DNA of 38,451 nucleotides from Clostridiales bacterium (GTDB lineage Bacteria > Bacillota > Clostridia > Oscillospirales > Oscillospiraceae): the NCBI GenBank assembly GCA_012520395.1, contig JAAYOL010000087.1:1-38451 (forward strand), in the 5' to 3' direction. Made by a program: the position numbers and the translations under genes. This document shows positions 25,093 to 32,146 of the stretch, piece by piece. The notes under the pieces were generated by a model. The model was not told the origin of the DNA. It worked only from the letters and a program-made list of their open reading frames with translations, and did not search any database. Every line of letters starts with the position of its first letter. Position 1 is the first letter of the stretch.

Positions 25093-26514
25093 TCAGCTAA
25101 GTTTTGCCTTGTCTGCTAGAACGACATCGACAACGAAGTAATTGCCGTTCCTGTAAATTTTCAGCGTTACAGTGTCGCCGGCGACAAATGAGTTGATGAT
25201 TTCGCTCAGTTCTTCAGAGGATTTAACCGTCAGGTCGTTAACGGCGCAGATTATGTCTCCGCGCTGGATGCCCTTTTCGTAGGCATCAGATACGGTGTAG
25301 ACTCCGCTGACGTAAACGCCCTTGGGGAGACCATAATAGATGGAGGCCGAGATGGTTATATCCGACTGGAGAACACCCAGGGAGGGCCTTCCGGCAACAT
25401 AGCCGTTTTCAAGAATTTCATCCACAATCGGCTTGGCAGTGTTGGTGGGTATCGCAAAGCCGATGCCCTCTATGGTCGAATAGTAGGAGACCATTTTCAT
25501 ATTGGTAATGCCGATTATCTGGCCGTACATATTGATGAGCGGGCCGCCGGAATTGCCTTCGTTTATCGCTGCGTTTGTCTGCAAGAGCGTCATCGTATAG
25601 CCGTTATAGCTAATATTCCGGTTTATTGCGGAAATTATACCGTTTGTCATGGTGAGAGACTGGTTGACAGGATTGCCTATGGCAACGACTGAATCTCCTA
25701 TCTGAACGAGCTGCGAATCCCCAAATTCTGCCGGGGTGAGGCCGGTTGCGTCTATTTTCAATACCGCAAGGTCGCTCTGCTCGTCTCCGCCGACCACCGC
25801 CGCAAAATACTGGTCTCCGCTTTCGAGAGTAATCGTTACGGCTATGCTGTCCTTGATGACGTGATGGTTCGTGATAAGGTATCCGCTTCTTGAGATTATG
25901 ATTCCCGTACCAAGTGAGCTGCCGCCCTGAAGCTCCGAATAAACTGAGACTATCGACGGAGCACATTTTTTGTAGATGTCTTGGAGACTGAGCATTTCCC
26001 CTGCTTCCGGGGGCGTGTTCGTGGACAGAACTGTGCCGTCCCAGCTTACGCCGGATGGAACTCCGGAAACCCCGGAGGTTGGAGTGGGGGAGGGAGTCTG
26101 AACTATCGGCAGGGGAGCAGTGGGCACGGGGTCCTCCGGCCTTGGAATTAGCGAAATCTTAATATTGCCGTCGCCGGAGGAGAATTGAAAATCATAATGT
26201 GTGAAAAGGTAGGTTATGAAGGAGGAGACAACTATGAGCGCAAGTGAGGTCAGTGCCATCGCGATAAACCTTGCAAGACCAAGCTTCTTTTTTTTGCGCG
26301 GCTCGTCATCTCGGGTGTGGCTTCGATTCAAGGCTGAGGGGGTTTGCGGGGAGAAGGGCTGATACTCGCGTTCAACCGGTGAGGTGTAGGCCGAATAACC
26401 GAAGGAACGGCCTTCCTCAGGAAACTGCTCTGACGACATATCGGAGAGCTTTTCGATTTTCTCTCCGGTTCTTTTGAAACGGAATTTCTTTTTATTATTG
26501 CCGTCTTCCAACAT
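25093..26514 (-). CDS. Membrane-anchored HtrA/DegP-type serine protease (S1C) with PDZ domain
   Basis: This 473-residue protein has a cytoplasmic N-terminal tail of about 77 mostly charged residues, one membrane helix (about 80-105), and a Pro/Thr-rich linker (about 124-170). A trypsin-like protease domain follows, with the triad H218 (ITNHHV), D248 (SDLAV) and S322 (EGNSGGP), and a C-terminal PDZ domain from about 375. The protease domain should face outward and degrade misfolded envelope proteins. GGGGGGAGA precedes the ATG. It is third in line after the response regulator and kinase, but has its own promoter region with three 11-bp-phased hexamers. This resembles CssRS/HtrA-type stress circuits. 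Confidence 0.94.
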   Translation of the reverse strand: MLEDGNNKKKFRFKRTGEKIEKLSDMSSEQFPEEGRSFGYSAYTSPVEREYQPFSPQTPSALNRSHTRDDEPRKKKKLGLARFIAMALTSLALIVVSSFITYLFTHYDFQFSSGDGNIKISLIPRPEDPVPTAPLPIVQTPSPTPTSGVSGVPSGVSWDGTVLSTNTPPEAGEMLSLQDIYKKCAPSIVSVYSELQGGSSLGTGIIISRSGYLITNHHVIKDSIAVTITLESGDQYFAAVVGGDEQSDLAVLKIDATGLTPAEFGDSQLVQIGDSVVAIGNPVNQSLTMTNGIISAINRNISYNGYTMTLLQTNAAINEGNSGGPLINMYGQIIGITNMKMVSYYSTIEGIGFAIPTNTAKPIVDEILENGYVAGRPSLGVLQSDITISASIYYGLPKGVYVSGVYTVSDAYEKGIQRGDIICAVNDLTVKSSEELSEIINSFVAGDTVTLKIYRNGNYFVVDVVLADKAKLS

Positions 26515-26541: not shown

Positions 26542-26595
26542 AGTATAAGATAAGAATATGGAGCAATTGTGAATACGTTGTGAAAATATTGTAAA
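26542..26595 (-). promoter_or_regulatory. htrA promoter with triple direct-repeat operator
   Basis: On the plus strand TGTGAA (26568-26573), TGTGAA (26579-26584) and TGTAAA (26590-26595) are spaced by exactly 5 bases. Read on the minus strand they are TTTACA-N5-TTCACA-N5-TTCACA. A -10 box TATACT (26542-26547, minus strand) lies 20 bp downstream of the last repeat, and the -35 is poor. This is the layout of a promoter activated by an OmpR-family regulator. The hexamers fit the B. subtilis PhoP box (TT[A/T/C]ACA repeats). Confidence 0.65.
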
Positions 26596-26614: not shown

Positions 26615-28039
26615 TCATGCTTTCAGCGTCAGAGTGAACACAAATTCGGTCACTCCCTCTGCGCTTGTCACATACACGTTTTCCTTGTGGTTGTCAATGA
26701 TGGTTTTTACGATATAAAGCCCGAGACCAACCCCTTCCTTATCCAGCCCGCGGCTGCGGTCGGTTTTGTGGAAACGGTCAAATATCAGCGGCAGCTCGGC
26801 CGGATCTATTGTCTCTCCAAGGTTCTTGACGGAGACATAGGCCTTTTCATTCTGTTTCCAGAGGCTGAGTGTTATGGCAGCCCCGTCGGATGAGAACTTG
26901 ATGGCATTGTCGAGCAGGTTGTAGACCACCTGGGTAATGGAGTCTGCGTCCCCGACGACAATTATGCTCTCCTCGGGTATCCGCAGCTCGGGCCTCAGGC
27001 CCCTTGCCTTCAGCTTTCCCTCGAGTCCGAGCACGGCGTGGCGGAGTACTTCGGTGATGTCGAAGGAGCTGTGGGCAGCGAGGGCCGGGTCTATCGACTG
27101 GATGCGGGAGAGCTCCAGCATTCTGCGCACGAGGCGGGAGAGCCTCCTTGTCTCCGAGGAGATGATTTCAAGGTATGTGCCCTGCTTTTCGGCGGGGATG
27201 GTTCCGTCGATTATGCCGTCGGCAAAGCCGGCTATGGTCGTCATGGGCGTCTTGAGCTCATGTGATATGTTGGCAATGAACTCGCTGCGGAGCTTTTCAG
27301 ACTTCTCCAGCGACTCCGCCATGGAGTTGAATGCGGCGGTAAGCTCGGCTATTTCGTCCTTACGCTTCGTCTGCCGGACGCGAACGGAGAATTCACCCCT
27401 TGCAAAATGCTTTGCCGCGGCGGCCATCTCCTTAAGAGGCGCCACCTGTCTGCCCGTTGTGATAAGCGAAAACACCAGTGACAGGATAAGCACGAAGCAG
27501 GAGGCAAAGAAGAATATGACGGCAAAAGAGCGCCAAATCTGCATCATTGACGAGGAATCTATCGATATGAGTATATACCCTGCCTGAGTTCCTGAATATG
27601 GGTTCTCAACGGTTGTGAAGTAATAGTAGCGCGGAGTGTTGTAAAAGCCCTCTAGCATGCCTGAGGACATTACCGCCTCTTCCCATTTCAGCGAGCTTAT
27701 CAGTGTATCCGGCAGCCTTGCTCCGATGTGCTGGCAGGAGCCGTAAACATCGGAGCAGGACACCACGTTGCCGTAGTTGTCACTTATCAGAATATCTACG
27801 CTTGAAGCCCCCGCTATAGCCGAAATCGTCATACGAAGGTCCCAGCCGTCGAGCTTCGATTCGGTGAGCTTTGCTGAAACTGTGCCCTGAATTACACCGG
27901 CTGTCATACGCAGCGATTCACGCTTGTCGGAGACAATAAAGCTATAGCTGACGGAGATAAACGAGGTCCCGAGAATGAGCAGGCTCAGCAGGACCATTCC
28001 AACCGTCAGCGTAAAATTCTTCAGATAGATGCTTTTCAT
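26615..28039 (-). CDS. Two-component sensor histidine kinase with HAMP domain
   Basis: This is a 474-residue membrane kinase. The first helix is about residues 10-36, the extracytoplasmic sensor about 37-168, and the second helix about 170-194. The HAMP region (about 195-245) follows, then the HisKA box FIANISHELKTP with the phosphorylated H260. The HATPase domain has NLLDNAIKFS (N box), KEGVGLGLYIVK (G box) and the F-box FDRFHKTDRS. The sensor domain holds two cysteines, C95 and C102, seven apart. It begins 24 bp after the response regulator stop and must be cotranscribed with it. The signal is unknown; the adjacent HtrA protease suggests envelope protein stress. Confidence 0.94.
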   Translation of the reverse strand: MKSIYLKNFTLTVGMVLLSLLILGTSFISVSYSFIVSDKRESLRMTAGVIQGTVSAKLTESKLDGWDLRMTISAIAGASSVDILISDNYGNVVSCSDVYGSCQHIGARLPDTLISSLKWEEAVMSSGMLEGFYNTPRYYYFTTVENPYSGTQAGYILISIDSSSMMQIWRSFAVIFFFASCFVLILSLVFSLITTGRQVAPLKEMAAAAKHFARGEFSVRVRQTKRKDEIAELTAAFNSMAESLEKSEKLRSEFIANISHELKTPMTTIAGFADGIIDGTIPAEKQGTYLEIISSETRRLSRLVRRMLELSRIQSIDPALAAHSSFDITEVLRHAVLGLEGKLKARGLRPELRIPEESIIVVGDADSITQVVYNLLDNAIKFSSDGAAITLSLWKQNEKAYVSVKNLGETIDPAELPLIFDRFHKTDRSRGLDKEGVGLGLYIVKTIIDNHKENVYVTSAEGVTEFVFTLTLKA

Positions 28040-28063: not shown

Positions 28064-28747
28064 TTACTGCGACAGCTCAAACTTATAGCCGACGCCCCAG
28101 ACAGTGGTCAGCGCCCAGCGGTCGCTGACGTTTTCGAGCTTCTCCCGAAGGCGCTTGATATGTACGTCCACTGTGCGAGAATCGCCGAAGTAGTCAAAGC
28201 CCCATACCTCGTCGAGAAGCTGGTTGCGTGTGTAGACCCTGTTGGGCGAGGATGCCAGATGGAACAAAAGCTCCAGCTCTTTGGGCGGGGTGTCCACCTT
28301 TTTGCCGTCCACAAGCAGCTCGTAAGACTCCATGTTTATCACAAGCTTGTCGAAGAAGAGCTTTCTGCTCGGGGGTTCGCCCGGCTCGTAACGGCGCATA
28401 ACGGCGTGAACCCGCGCCATTAGCTCCTTAATTTCAAAGGGCTTGGTTATGTAGTCGTCTGCTCCCATCTCAAGGCCCGAGATCTTTTCGTTTGTCTCGC
28501 CCCTGGCTGTGAGCATGATGATGGGAACATTCGAGTTCTTGCGGATTTCCCGGCAGACCGCCCAGCCGTCCATGACGGGCAGCATTATGTCGAGCAGTAC
28601 TAGGTCCGGCTCAAAGCTCTGCGCCATGGCGACGCCGGCCCCCCCGTCGGGCGCTATTGAAATAACAAAGCCGTCTTTCTCGAGATACAGGCGCAGAAGC
28701 TCTGCGATATTTGCATCATCCTCGACTATCAGGACTTTCTTTGACAT
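28064..28747 (-). CDS. OmpR/PhoB-family response regulator
   Basis: This is a 227-residue regulator. The receiver domain has the acidic pair D10/D11, phosphoacceptor D53 in LVLLDIMLPVMDGW, the T in MLTARG, and lysine in YITKPF. The C-terminal winged helix contains LELLFHLASSPNRVYTRNQLLDEVWG and SRTVDVHIKRLREKL with the usual GVGYKF end. It is the partner of the kinase directly downstream. Its own promoter carries two of the same hexamers, 11 bp apart, that occur in three copies before htrA. This indicates autoregulation and direct control of the protease gene. Confidence 0.95.
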   Translation of the reverse strand: MSKKVLIVEDDANIAELLRLYLEKDGFVISIAPDGGAGVAMAQSFEPDLVLLDIMLPVMDGWAVCREIRKNSNVPIIMLTARGETNEKISGLEMGADDYITKPFEIKELMARVHAVMRRYEPGEPPSRKLFFDKLVINMESYELLVDGKKVDTPPKELELLFHLASSPNRVYTRNQLLDEVWGFDYFGDSRTVDVHIKRLREKLENVSDRWALTTVWGVGYKFELSQ

Positions 28748-28783: not shown

Positions 28784-28829
28784 ATTATAATAGATAACCG
28801 GCAAGCGTCAATAGTGAACAAATTGTAAA
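28784..28829 (-). promoter_or_regulatory. Promoter of the TCS operon with two direct-repeat half-sites
   Basis: On the minus strand TTGACG (28806-28811) and TATAAT (28784-28789) are 16 bp apart. Just upstream of the -35 lie plus-strand hexamers AGTGAA (28813-28818) and TGTAAA (28824-28829) with 5 bases between them. A further TGTAAA (28831-28836) is out of phase. The position immediately upstream of -35 is typical for an activator. Confidence 0.65.
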
Positions 28830-28919: not shown

Positions 28920-30776
28920 TTAATAACCGTATTTGCTGTATTCCATATCCATGCGGTATTCCATATCCATATAGGGTACCCTATCCGGATACTCTGCAAC
29001 CGCGGGCTCTATGCCCATCTTCTTCAGATATGATATGGTCTTTTCCGAGCTTAGGTTGGGGAGTACGGTAATATAATCTACGCCGCCCGCAAAATTGATT
29101 TTGATAAAACAGTCGTATAACGCATTTTCGGAGCCCATGTCATAGAAAATGAAGGTCCTGCCGAGCTTGCCTGCGCGTATATCGGCCTTAATGCAGTCCT
29201 GTAAAAACTCCCGTGCATCAGAGCCCGTGAGGTACTCCTCGTTTACCTTTGCCTCGGGGGTTTCATGGTCCAGATAATAGATGCCGACAGACGATATCGA
29301 ATTTTCGTCAATTTCCAGAATGTCGCTCATGCGGTCGGACACTGCCCCGGGAGTATTAAACCTCTCCTCCAGCATCAGCAAAATATCTTTGTCCGCTCCG
29401 GGGACATTGTAAAGGTCATATCTGCGCGAAATCGTCTTCCCGTTTTTAAGAGAGTAGCGGTAATCTATGTGGAACATATCGGAATAGATTCTGCTTCCGC
29501 TGCGGGCGTATTTTTCATTTGCGGGCTTGTTTTCGATTATGGCCTTATGCGCCAACATAAGCTCCTCTATCACCTCCGGGTCGTCAAAGAACAATGTCTC
29601 GGAACTTCCGTATATCCTGAGGGTTTCTACCGAATTGACATCGGGGATGTAGCGCTCGACCTTGAAAACGTCAAGCTCCATCGCCATCACAAGGGCGGCT
29701 AGAGCGACCACATAAACGAGAAAGCCGGGAGTGGTTTTCTTAAACACTCGGAAGGATTTTCTAAGCAGCATGGCTGTTATAAAATAGCCCAGGAATCCGC
29801 CGACTATCATGCAGCTGAGCATCGGCCAGGCCGAGCCGCTTTCGTCGTAGCTCGAGAATCCGAATATGACGCTATAAAAGAGAATACCGAGCACAAGCGA
29901 GCCGATAAAAGCAAAGAAGTACTGGAAAAAGGGTCTGAGGGTGGGTACTGCGATAAACTCTGAGGCGCTTTCACTGTGCCGCCTGCGATAGAGCAGGAGA
30001 GCCAGAGCGGTAAAGACCAGCCCCGCCGCAGCGTAAATTAGAAGCGTCGTCCATCCCGTATAGACCGGGTCAAGGTAGCGGGAACCGTCATAATAACCCT
30101 CGATCGAGGTGTTTTTAAACAGCATAACGATGGGAGAGAGGACGTCAAGGGTTGTGGAGCTGACGCTGGTGAGTCCGTAGCAGAAGAGCGAGGCGCAAAA
30201 GCGGATTATAAGCTCTACAATAGCCACGATAAAGTTTAAAATGCCGTATATGACCAGCAGGGCGAAGCCGTGCCCGGTCAGAAATGCGCAGAACACAGCG
30301 AAGCCGTAGAAAAACAGTCCCTGAAGGCAGACCATGGCAAGCCACTGGAGCAGGTATCCGATGGAAAGCGAGCCATAAAGCAGCTCAATTCCCGCGGAAA
30401 GGGCGAAGATAAACAGGTTGGAGATGAAAAGCCAGCAGAGACCTGAGAGAAAGCAGGTCAGGAACAGTCCCTCCCGGCGAATAGGCAGGGTGTGGAAGGC
30501 GCCGGCGCTCCTCGCATTATAGAGGTATGAAAAGAGCGTCAGAGCGGAAACGAAGCCAAAAATGGCGTTCATTATGACGCCCATATAAAGGGCGTTATTC
30601 ATAATGTAATTGTTAATATAGGAGGCATTGCCGAAGAAGCTGCTGGAGAGCTGGCTTACAATTACCAGAGGCATGCCTATCACCCAGGCGATGTTATATA
30701 GAGCCCAGACAGGCCAGAAACGCTTTATGTTTTTGATGAACAGAGCCTTATTAAAGCAGGATGTCACGGATTTCAT
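28920..30776 (-). CDS. ABC transporter permease, DUF6449-like C-terminal domain
   Basis: This is 618 residues from the ATG at 30776. The frame is open to 30860, but GGGAGGTG (30783-30790) lies 8 bases before this ATG, and the start MKSVTSCFNKALFIKNIKR is a typical permease opening. About twelve hydrophobic segments in the first 400 residues form two membrane blocks. A soluble outward domain of about 200 residues follows, from VERYIPDVNSVETLRI. I think it matches the DUF6449 region of clostridial permeases. The C-terminus ends in a duplicated MDMEYR/MDMEYS. The gene overlaps the ATPase gene by 26 bp. The substrate is unknown. Confidence 0.85.
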   Translation of the reverse strand: MKSVTSCFNKALFIKNIKRFWPVWALYNIAWVIGMPLVIVSQLSSSFFGNASYINNYIMNNALYMGVIMNAIFGFVSALTLFSYLYNARSAGAFHTLPIRREGLFLTCFLSGLCWLFISNLFIFALSAGIELLYGSLSIGYLLQWLAMVCLQGLFFYGFAVFCAFLTGHGFALLVIYGILNFIVAIVELIIRFCASLFCYGLTSVSSTTLDVLSPIVMLFKNTSIEGYYDGSRYLDPVYTGWTTLLIYAAAGLVFTALALLLYRRRHSESASEFIAVPTLRPFFQYFFAFIGSLVLGILFYSVIFGFSSYDESGSAWPMLSCMIVGGFLGYFITAMLLRKSFRVFKKTTPGFLVYVVALAALVMAMELDVFKVERYIPDVNSVETLRIYGSSETLFFDDPEVIEELMLAHKAIIENKPANEKYARSGSRIYSDMFHIDYRYSLKNGKTISRRYDLYNVPGADKDILLMLEERFNTPGAVSDRMSDILEIDENSISSVGIYYLDHETPEAKVNEEYLTGSDAREFLQDCIKADIRAGKLGRTFIFYDMGSENALYDCFIKINFAGGVDYITVLPNLSSEKTISYLKKMGIEPAVAEYPDRVPYMDMEYRMDMEYSKYGY

Positions 30777-31644
30777 AGTCCACACCTCCCAATTCGTAAA
30801 TAAAAATTTCTTCAAGCGTGAGCGGCACAAGGTCATAGAACACAGGGGACAGGGCCGCAACCTTCGCGCTTATATACTCGGTAGTGCCGCGCATGATAAG
30901 CGTTAGAATCCGTCCGCTTGACGACTCGTGAATAGCTCCGAAGTTCTGAGGAAGCGTCTCACCCTCGGGCAGGACGAGCTGAAGCTTTGCAATGTTGTCC
31001 TGCAGCTCCGACAGGGAGCGCTGGAGAAGAAGCTTGCCGTTGTGCATTATTCCGACATGGTCGCATACGTCCTCAAGCTCACGAAGGTTGTGCGAGGAGA
31101 CAAGGACCGTAGTGCCTCTATCGGCCACATCGTTCATAATAATGCTCCAGACCTGGCGGCGCATAACGGGGTCAAGTCCGTCCACCGGCTCGTCTAGTAT
31201 CAGGATGTCCGGTCGCATACACACGGCAAGCCTGAAGGCCGCCTGCTTCTGCATACCCTTGGATAGCTGGCGCATCGGACGCTTGTCGTTGAACTCGAAG
31301 ATCTTGCCAAGCTTTTCATAGCGCCCCATGTCAAAGCGCGGGTATATGCCCTTGTAAAACTGCATCATGTCCCTTGTGGAGGCCTGGAGAAAGTAGAATA
31401 TTTCGTCAGGAATACAGGCCATGCGCTGCTTCACCTCAGGGTTTTCGTAAACGGTTTTGCCGTCTATCTTCACCTCGCCGGCGTCCTGCCGGTATATACC
31501 CGAAAGATGTCGTATCACTGTCGATTTGCCCGCGCCGTTGGGCCCTACAAGCCCGTAGACCGAGCCTTTTTCCACACTGAAGCTCAGACCACTCAGTGCA
31601 GTAAAGTCACCGAAGCGCTTTACGAGATTTTTTACCTCAATCAT
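30751..31644 (-). CDS. ABC transporter ATP-binding protein
   Basis: This is a 297-residue ATPase subunit. It has Walker A GPNGAGKST (about residues 35-43), the degenerate signature LSKGMQKQAAFRLA, Walker B ILILDEPVDGLDP and the switch histidine in VLVSSHN. The C-terminal tail is of the type found in ABC-2 exporters next to YtrA-type regulators. AGGAG (31654-31658) is 9 bases before the ATG and lies inside the small ORF upstream, whose stop overlaps this start as ATGA. The permease start lies within its last codons. Together with the permease it should form an exporter, perhaps for a cell-wall-active compound by analogy with Ytr systems. Confidence 0.95.
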   Translation of the reverse strand: MIEVKNLVKRFGDFTALSGLSFSVEKGSVYGLVGPNGAGKSTVIRHLSGIYRQDAGEVKIDGKTVYENPEVKQRMACIPDEIFYFLQASTRDMMQFYKGIYPRFDMGRYEKLGKIFEFNDKRPMRQLSKGMQKQAAFRLAVCMRPDILILDEPVDGLDPVMRRQVWSIIMNDVADRGTTVLVSSHNLRELEDVCDHVGIMHNGKLLLQRSLSELQDNIAKLQLVLPEGETLPQNFGAIHESSSGRILTLIMRGTTEYISAKVAALSPVFYDLVPLTLEEIFIYELGGVDYEIRDILL

Positions 31645-31772
31645 ATTACGTCGCTCCTTTCGCTGTACTCAAGGAAATAAAATGACCGTGAAAAGGGCCG
31701 GCCATTTGTGAAGGCGCTGCTTATTGCGGGGGACAGGCAGCTGTGTTCATTCAGGTTTGTAATAGGTTTCAT
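31641..31772 (-). CDS. Small 43-residue protein in the GntR-ABC operon, unannotated type
   Basis: The start ATG (31770-31772) overlaps the GntR stop as ATGA, and the stop TGA (31641-31643) overlaps the ATPase start as ATGA. AGGAGG lies 6 bases before the start. The peptide begins MKPITNLNEHSCLSPA and ends LEYSERSDVI. It is polar, with a single cysteine (C12), no membrane helix and several serines and aromatic residues. I do not recognise a family. It could be a true small partner protein of the transporter or a coupling ORF that delivers ribosomes to the ATPase start. Confidence 0.6.
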   Translation of the reverse strand: MKPITNLNEHSCLSPAISSAFTNGRPFSRSFYFLEYSERSDVI

Positions 31773-32146
31773 AGCCCTCCTCCTGAATCCTTAGATAGAC
31801 TGTCTATCCGGCTTTTAAGTTCCTCGGCATGGGTGCCGAGGAATAAAAGCTCGATTACCGCTTCCTCAAACTTCTTAAGCTGCTGCGACCGGCGCGCGCT
31901 GTCCACACCGGACATGTCGGAAACGAAGGAGCCCTTGCCAGCCGTCGTGTAAATGTAACCCTCTGCCTCCAGCTCCTTATACGCCCGCTGTATGGTATTC
32001 GGATTAATTGCGAGAGCAGAGGCCAGCTCCCGAACCGAGGGCAGCCTTTCGTCCGGAGAGAAGGCGCCCGTCATCACCAGCTTTCTCAGGCCGTCCTTTA
32101 TCTGCTCGTAAATTGGTCTGGAATCCCGGTAGTTTAGATTTATCAC
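31769..32146 (-). CDS. GntR-family (YtrA subfamily) transcriptional regulator
   Basis: This is a 125-residue regulator from a GTG at 32146 with GGTGGTGA upstream. The winged helix-turn-helix has RPIYEQIKDGLRKLVMTGAF, RLPSVRELASALAINPNTIQRAYKELE (split helix) and GYIYTTAGKGSFV. The short C-terminal helix of about 40 residues is the YtrA-type dimerisation tail without a ligand domain. Such repressors usually control the adjacent ABC operon and respond to cell-envelope antibiotics or membrane stress. It heads the operon and overlaps the small ORF by 4 bp. An inverted repeat over its transcription start suggests autorepression. Confidence 0.93.
   Translation of the reverse strand: MINLNYRDSRPIYEQIKDGLRKLVMTGAFSPDERLPSVRELASALAINPNTIQRAYKELEAEGYIYTTAGKGSFVSDMSGVDSARRSQQLKKFEEAVIELLFLGTHAEELKSRIDSLSKDSGGGL

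Follow-up and report, generated by a model that had tools for sequence, protein, structure and literature searches.

Three direct hexamer repeats that precede htrA in a 38,451-nucleotide stretch of Oscillospiraceae DNA (referred to here, at its full length, as the window) constitute a real and conserved control site. Judged from sequence comparison, these boxes are most likely read by the neighbouring sensor-regulator pair: we hold with good confidence that the triple is the operator of a response regulator of the OmpR/PhoB type whose gene lies two positions upstream, and which would activate htrA and also regulate its own gene through a two-box copy of the site. The htrA operator would then be a new example of a familiar kind, and the apparent exchange of htrA for a candidate small RNA in other genera may be a variant worth testing.

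The three genes of the locus lie on the minus strand in the order regulator, kinase, htrA, the last two being separated by a 100 bp gap (Table 1). The regulator scored over the Pfam cut-offs for a receiver (PF00072) and a Trans_reg_C domain (PF00486), which places it in the OmpR/PhoB family, and the protease did so for its trypsin-like (PF13365) and PDZ (PF13180) domains, its score against TIGR02037 being below cut-off (270.4 vs 416.2). The top NCBIfam models of the regulator all scored under their own cut-offs, and three more specific names were accordingly rejected: MtrA, the best model, at 240.6 bits (NF040689 cut-off 300), WalR/YycF at 233.8 bits (NF040534 cut-off 340, another regulator of the same genome, G000:C10, reaching 314.1), and PhoB at 229.8 bits (TIGR02154 cut-off 296.2, with no PstB over cut-off in the genome). 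For the kinase, the best NCBIfam model was WalK, with a score far under the WalK cut-off. Upstream of the regulator, the minus strand of the window (28920-32146) carries genes named by eye as a GntR-type regulator, an ABC ATPase and a membrane protein. This cluster ends with a terminator-like hairpin at 28909-28885, so that transcription of the regulator operon is probably driven by a promoter of its own.

Table 1. Features of the regulator-kinase-htrA locus, in window coordinates.
Feature	Position	Strand	Description
htrA	25093..26514	-	HtrA-like serine protease, one PDZ domain; RBS GGGGGGAG at 26528-26521
-10 box TATACT	26542..26547	-	20 bp from third box; no good -35
Triple operator	26568..26595	-	TTTACA 26595-26590, TTCACA 26584-26579, TTCACA 26573-26568; 11-bp period
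Sensor histidine kinase	26615..28039	-	HAMP-HisKA-HATPase_c, 474 aa
OmpR/PhoB-family response regulator	28064..28747	-	227 aa, recognition helix SRTVDVHIKRLREKLE
Regulator promoter	28784..28811	-	-35-like TTGACG, 16 bp, TATAAT; near-consensus sigma-A (11/12)
Two-box operator TTTACA-N5-TTCACT	28813..28829	-	Response regulator's own promoter; same place in 5/5 genus genomes

The operator and the -10 box both sit in the gap between the kinase gene and htrA and are followed by GGGGGGAG and the ATG. Read on the plus strand, 26568-26595 is TGTGAA-N5-TGTGAA-N5-TGTAAA, and the initial annotation, which had described these three hexamers in 11-bp phase, with a -10 box at 20 bp and a poor -35, was exact on every position. 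Indeed, no promoter-like site matching at least 9 of 12 positions and ending on the TATACT of htrA was found. Repeats of TT[ATC]ACA form the PhoP box of Bacillus subtilis, and the proposed resemblance to this code also holds, since all three hexamers match it on the minus strand at 11 bp. The regulator gene, which had been placed just upstream of htrA, does lie upstream, but the kinase gene comes between the two. A search of the window with up to three mismatches returned four matches against 0.13 expected, a number reached by none of 100 shuffles; two of the four are the htrA operator itself in two registers. Across the 1.86 Mb genome the exact triple has a single occurrence, and on this count and the shuffles a chance origin was rejected.

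The same boxes recur at the regulator's own promoter, which ties the operator to the neighbouring regulator. The form of this two-box site in the genus is TTWACA-N5-TTCACT (5/5 genomes), and an alternative -10, TATTAT (28792-28787), overlaps the one listed in Table 1 and lies exactly 20 bp from the second box. Since autoregulatory sites and an adjacent target occur together, the neighbouring regulator is the first candidate for the protein that reads them.

All five congeneric genomes possess the regulator-kinase-htrA arrangement with the triple before htrA and a spacing of N20 to the -10, and across the five species both the box letters and this spacing are kept within the kinase-htrA gap. 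The initial annotation would have been refuted by a lack of conservation upstream of htrA orthologues; its main inference withstood this check, as the operator is present there in every genus member and, in addition, in other genera where the gap leaves room for a promoter (see below). A three-box pattern search of the genus matched the htrA promoter in 5/5 genomes and one stray site in a single genome. When relaxed to at most three mismatches, it returned 61 matches against 46 in the control, and only the htrA site was found in all five genomes; on this basis, no wider regulon can be called in the window's genome. The two-box search of the genus gave further matches, most of them chance-like; two of these, L037 and L053, are identical and lie inside a coding frame. 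Two other two-box sites, L052 (G000:C109, 6438) and L038 (G001:C4, 6953), are each followed by an RBS and a 25-aa frame that is conserved (..EDIDD.IF.N.GT..SDR), with a terminator-like hairpin behind it, the L038 frame being located near pfkA; this frame would encode an unannotated small protein, perhaps a member of the same regulon.

At the level of the family, 120 genomes were surveyed. The kinase matched strongly in 113, in split form in one (G089) and only weakly in six (G013, G015, G022, G051, G062 and G086); these last seven were left out, and 111 loci outside the genus were examined with the five genus loci (116 in total). The regulator lies upstream of the kinase in 109 of the 116 and htrA directly downstream in 81, while the label 'no adjacent htrA' (35/116) includes contig ends (e.g. 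L212, L259, L286); adjacency was assigned by hand from coordinates at 16 loci. A matrix trained only on the five genus species (20 genus hexamers) was scanned against first-order shuffles. Its denominators of 103 and 110 arise because seven of the 116 loci have no regulator in the stretch, one regulator region is shorter than 120 bp and one kinase-downstream region is shorter than 100 bp.

Outside the genus, the two-box operator was detected at 68 of 103 regulator promoters at p<=0.01 (81 at p<=0.05), and the -10 of those 68 lies at 19 bp in 50 cases and at 20 bp in 12. Sites exceeding 10 bits numbered 74/103 at period 11, compared with 4-26 at other periods and nine on the reverse strand. The idea that the boxes are mere -35 elements was rejected, as 62 of the 68 promoters have 19-20 bp, and not 16-18 bp, between box and -10. 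Behind the kinase, 30 of 110 loci carried the three-box operator at p<=0.01; the distance to the -10 is 20 bp in 19 of them and 19 bp in three, and 26 loci exceeded 10 bits at period 11, with none on the reverse strand.

Where the htrA start could be measured (59 loci), the three-box operator is present in 10 of the 21 whose kinase-htrA gap is at least 50 bp, and it is absent from all 38 shorter gaps. The remaining 11 of the 21 fail p<=0.01, which counts against the model of an htrA operator. The operator thus occurs only where the gap leaves room for a promoter, so that in many family members htrA probably belongs to the operon served by the autoregulated promoter; some of them, the window's among these, have an htrA operator in addition. 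Boxes were also found at htrA genes away from the kinase, namely at both of two homologues in G019 (L396 and L355, the L355 gene being named by coordinates) and, at p<=0.003, in G102, G063 and G029 (L397, L404, L408). Counter to the model, eight of the 16 non-adjacent htrA upstream regions (L393-L408) gave no three-box signal at p<=0.1 (L393, L395, L398-L401, L405, L406), and four controls from genomes without the kinase were not all clean, with three-box p values of 0.467, 0.043, 0.020 and 0.057, although their scores were low (0.8-6.8 bits). A further 48 named kinase loci (L066-L113, four of them genus members again) were scanned once and stand outside these counts; most have htrA close behind the kinase.

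These observations fit a simple circuit, the steps of which we infer: binding, its dependence on phosphorylation, activation and an envelope-stress signal. The kinase would phosphorylate the neighbouring regulator, molecules of which would line up head-to-tail along a single face of the helix in 11-bp steps. With the last box ending 20 bp before the -10, the bound regulator would bring RNA polymerase to the htrA promoter, which has no good -35, and htrA would be switched on as a result. The two-box copy at the regulator promoter would serve autoregulation, and in other genera the operator slot behind the kinase would serve a candidate CU-rich small RNA in place of htrA.

The identity of the regulator that reads the boxes deserves particular attention, since boxes of this type also occur at pst promoters, in two of the five genus genomes, and the code alone cannot name it. 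TTTACA-N5-TTTAC[AT] boxes stand before pstS-like (L054, L056) and pstB-like (L051) genes, and the recognition helix of the pst-linked regulator, TRTVDVHIRTLRQKLG, is close to the SRTVDVHIKRLREKLE of the window. Two regulators of the genus may thus share one DNA code, and the boxes could be Pho boxes read by a PhoB/PhoP phosphate regulator rather than by the neighbour, making htrA a phosphate-starvation gene. We regard this as unlikely, however, because a PstB over the family cut-off is present in G002-G004 and absent from both G001 and the window's own genome (G000, of 98.87% completeness); the latter two nevertheless retain both operators, although none of their aligned regulators has a PhoB helix of the pst type. 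Furthermore, across the family the operator tracks the regulator-kinase genes. The case for the WalR orthologue of the same genome is weaker still, and we consider it very improbable: its hexamer repeats have the same N5 spacing, its consensus, TGTWAH-N5-TGTWAH (PMC4168254), resembles the plus-strand letters, and a WalR-like regulator exists in 5/5 genomes (303-318 bits to NF040534). Yet only one of the three window hexamers (TGTAAA) fits TGTWAH in that form, both copies of TGTGAA failing, and the WalR-like regulator has a different helix, LRAVDVAVKRLREKVE.

The sign of control was weighed in the same manner. The two boxes at the regulator gene lie immediately next to a sigma-A promoter of near-consensus sequence, a setting compatible with either sign, and the boxes might repress htrA or just tune a constitutive promoter. 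Such a role is improbable in our view, as the htrA promoter is devoid of a good -35 and its boxes, ending 20 bp upstream of the -10, leave the -10 and the start site free; both features would suit activation.

Of the known systems, Bacillus WalRK (YycFG) has htrC downstream, and the present locus is similar in clustering a regulator, a kinase with WalK as its best model and an HtrA-type protease; it differs in that both proteins fall far under the WalR/WalK cut-offs and in that the WalR-like regulator is a separate gene. CssRS of B. subtilis likewise exerts two-component control over htrA genes. With the PhoB/PhoP system, the locus shares TTYACA-type hexamers at 11 bp and a regulator of the OmpR/PhoB family, but not a PhoB-level score or, in its genome, a PstB over cut-off. 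A parallel in logic is CiaRH of streptococci, which (PMC3091779 and PMC8317062) controls htrA and its own genes through direct hexamer repeats with N5 spacing (NTTAAG-N5-TTTAAG, 10 bp from the -10; helix VVEVYVSKVRKKL), as well as csRNAs that bear anti-SD regions and end in terminators. Common to both systems are direct repeats with N5 spacing at htrA as well as at the regulatory genes themselves. In contrast, the boxes here are TTYAYA, lie 19-20 bp from the -10 and are paired with helix SRTVDVHIKRLREKLE; as repeat letters, spacing and helix all differ from that description, the circuit is CiaRH-like in logic and is not established as CiaRH. As for operator-driven small RNAs, candidates were found here in 11 genera and at loci in trans, with none in the window's genus. 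Finally, LisRK of Listeria monocytogenes is described in PMC4132741 as an envelope-stress two-component system needed for the CU-rich LhrC small RNAs; a box consensus for LisR had not been identified in that paper. The combination of a stress system with CU-rich RNAs is similar in description, and no htrA slot is described for LisRK in the part consulted.

At 13 loci from 11 genera in which htrA is not the next gene (L208, L209, L213, L214, L217, L219, L222, L231, L243, L257, L263, L272 and L314), the kinase gene is directly followed by the operator with a -10-like box. No good reading frame follows; instead, a pyrimidine-rich tract (often CCCTCTCTTTT) lies close before a GC hairpin, and this short non-coding stretch with its terminator-like hairpin is a candidate small RNA gene. 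Over 170 nt downstream of the -10 position, the longest pyrimidine run averages 16.9 at these loci, compared with 6.8 on the reverse strand and 10.1 in shuffles (maximum 13.2), and the exact CU motif is present in 6/13. Comparison loci with operator and htrA gave a run of 7.2 and the motif in 1/20, and loci with neither gave 6.9 and 1/19. A new pattern search matched 43 of 400 family genomes, and in the genomes beyond the first 120 it yielded 16 sites behind the kinase, four of which precede htrA-type genes (L416, L417, L439, L440). The other 12 (L413, L425, L429-L438), without htrA, all contain the CU motif (shuffles: mean 1.47, maximum 6); they come from five genera, four of which were already in the first set, and are therefore not fully independent. 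Comparison of five g4 species showed the CU block to be best kept while the 5' half diverges, and four g98 species gave two-sided changes in 5/32 pairs with a covariation term of about zero, so that evidence for structure is thin. A short SD-preceded frame (16-34 aa) occurs in 3/21 candidate RNAs and is not conserved. When 12 loci were searched against Rfam, none of its families matched at the candidate RNAs, and the window's genus itself yielded no operator-controlled small RNA.

The CU motif also occurs at 8/30 operator-like sites away from the kinase, several of which have a hairpin behind it (L342, L346, L347, L349, L420, L441). Judging by this layout, the kinase-remote units are possible small RNA copies in trans, and they could also be sites of a different regulator that shares this code. 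CU-rich tracts and hairpins accompany the kinase-remote operator-like sites L346, L347, L349, L418-L420, L342, L361, L364 and L441, which are further candidates for small RNA genes.

It is conceivable, if doubtful, that the candidates are simple spacers, the operator being a relic of htrA loss and the hairpin terminating the kinase operon or a convergent gene. Several loci do have a convergent next gene that the hairpin could serve, the 5' parts of the candidates diverge quickly, and the exact CU motif is missing from seven of the 13 discovery loci. A relic, however, sits poorly with an operator and -10 that persist in 11 genera, with a pyrimidine tract enriched on one strand only, with the motif in every new locus where shuffles reach at most 6/12, and with similar operator-CU-hairpin units away from the kinase (L342, L346, L347, L349, L418-L420, L441). 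On balance we lean, by a modest degree, towards a previously unrecognised autoregulated stress circuit in which the slot behind the kinase would be interchangeable, holding either htrA or new CU-rich, terminator-ended small RNAs with more copies in trans.

If so, this circuit would parallel CiaRH while using a DNA code of the PhoB type and RNAs that fall outside the Rfam families, and it would be a second, differently built case of htrA and anti-SD small RNAs under one two-component regulator. An operator defined by sequence, period and -10 spacing would make the regulon readable straight from genomes, and concrete candidate small RNAs are hereby supplied for testing. Among the papers listed by a limited literature search on these bacteria, none contained the name Oscillospiraceae or Ruminococcaceae, so that this listing holds no prior report. 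To our knowledge, little is known about stress regulation and small RNAs in these mostly uncultured Clostridia.

Two further groups of sites stand apart. The candidate RNA of L219 and L243 (genus g2) is unlike the others, having a hairpin loop with a conserved GAGGGTAGCCGCC and a two-sided change in its stem. Operator-like sites were also seen before the long-protein genes of L341, L353 and L362, whose products have a Lys/Arg-rich start and one membrane helix and, by eye, resemble membrane-fusion (efflux adaptor) proteins.
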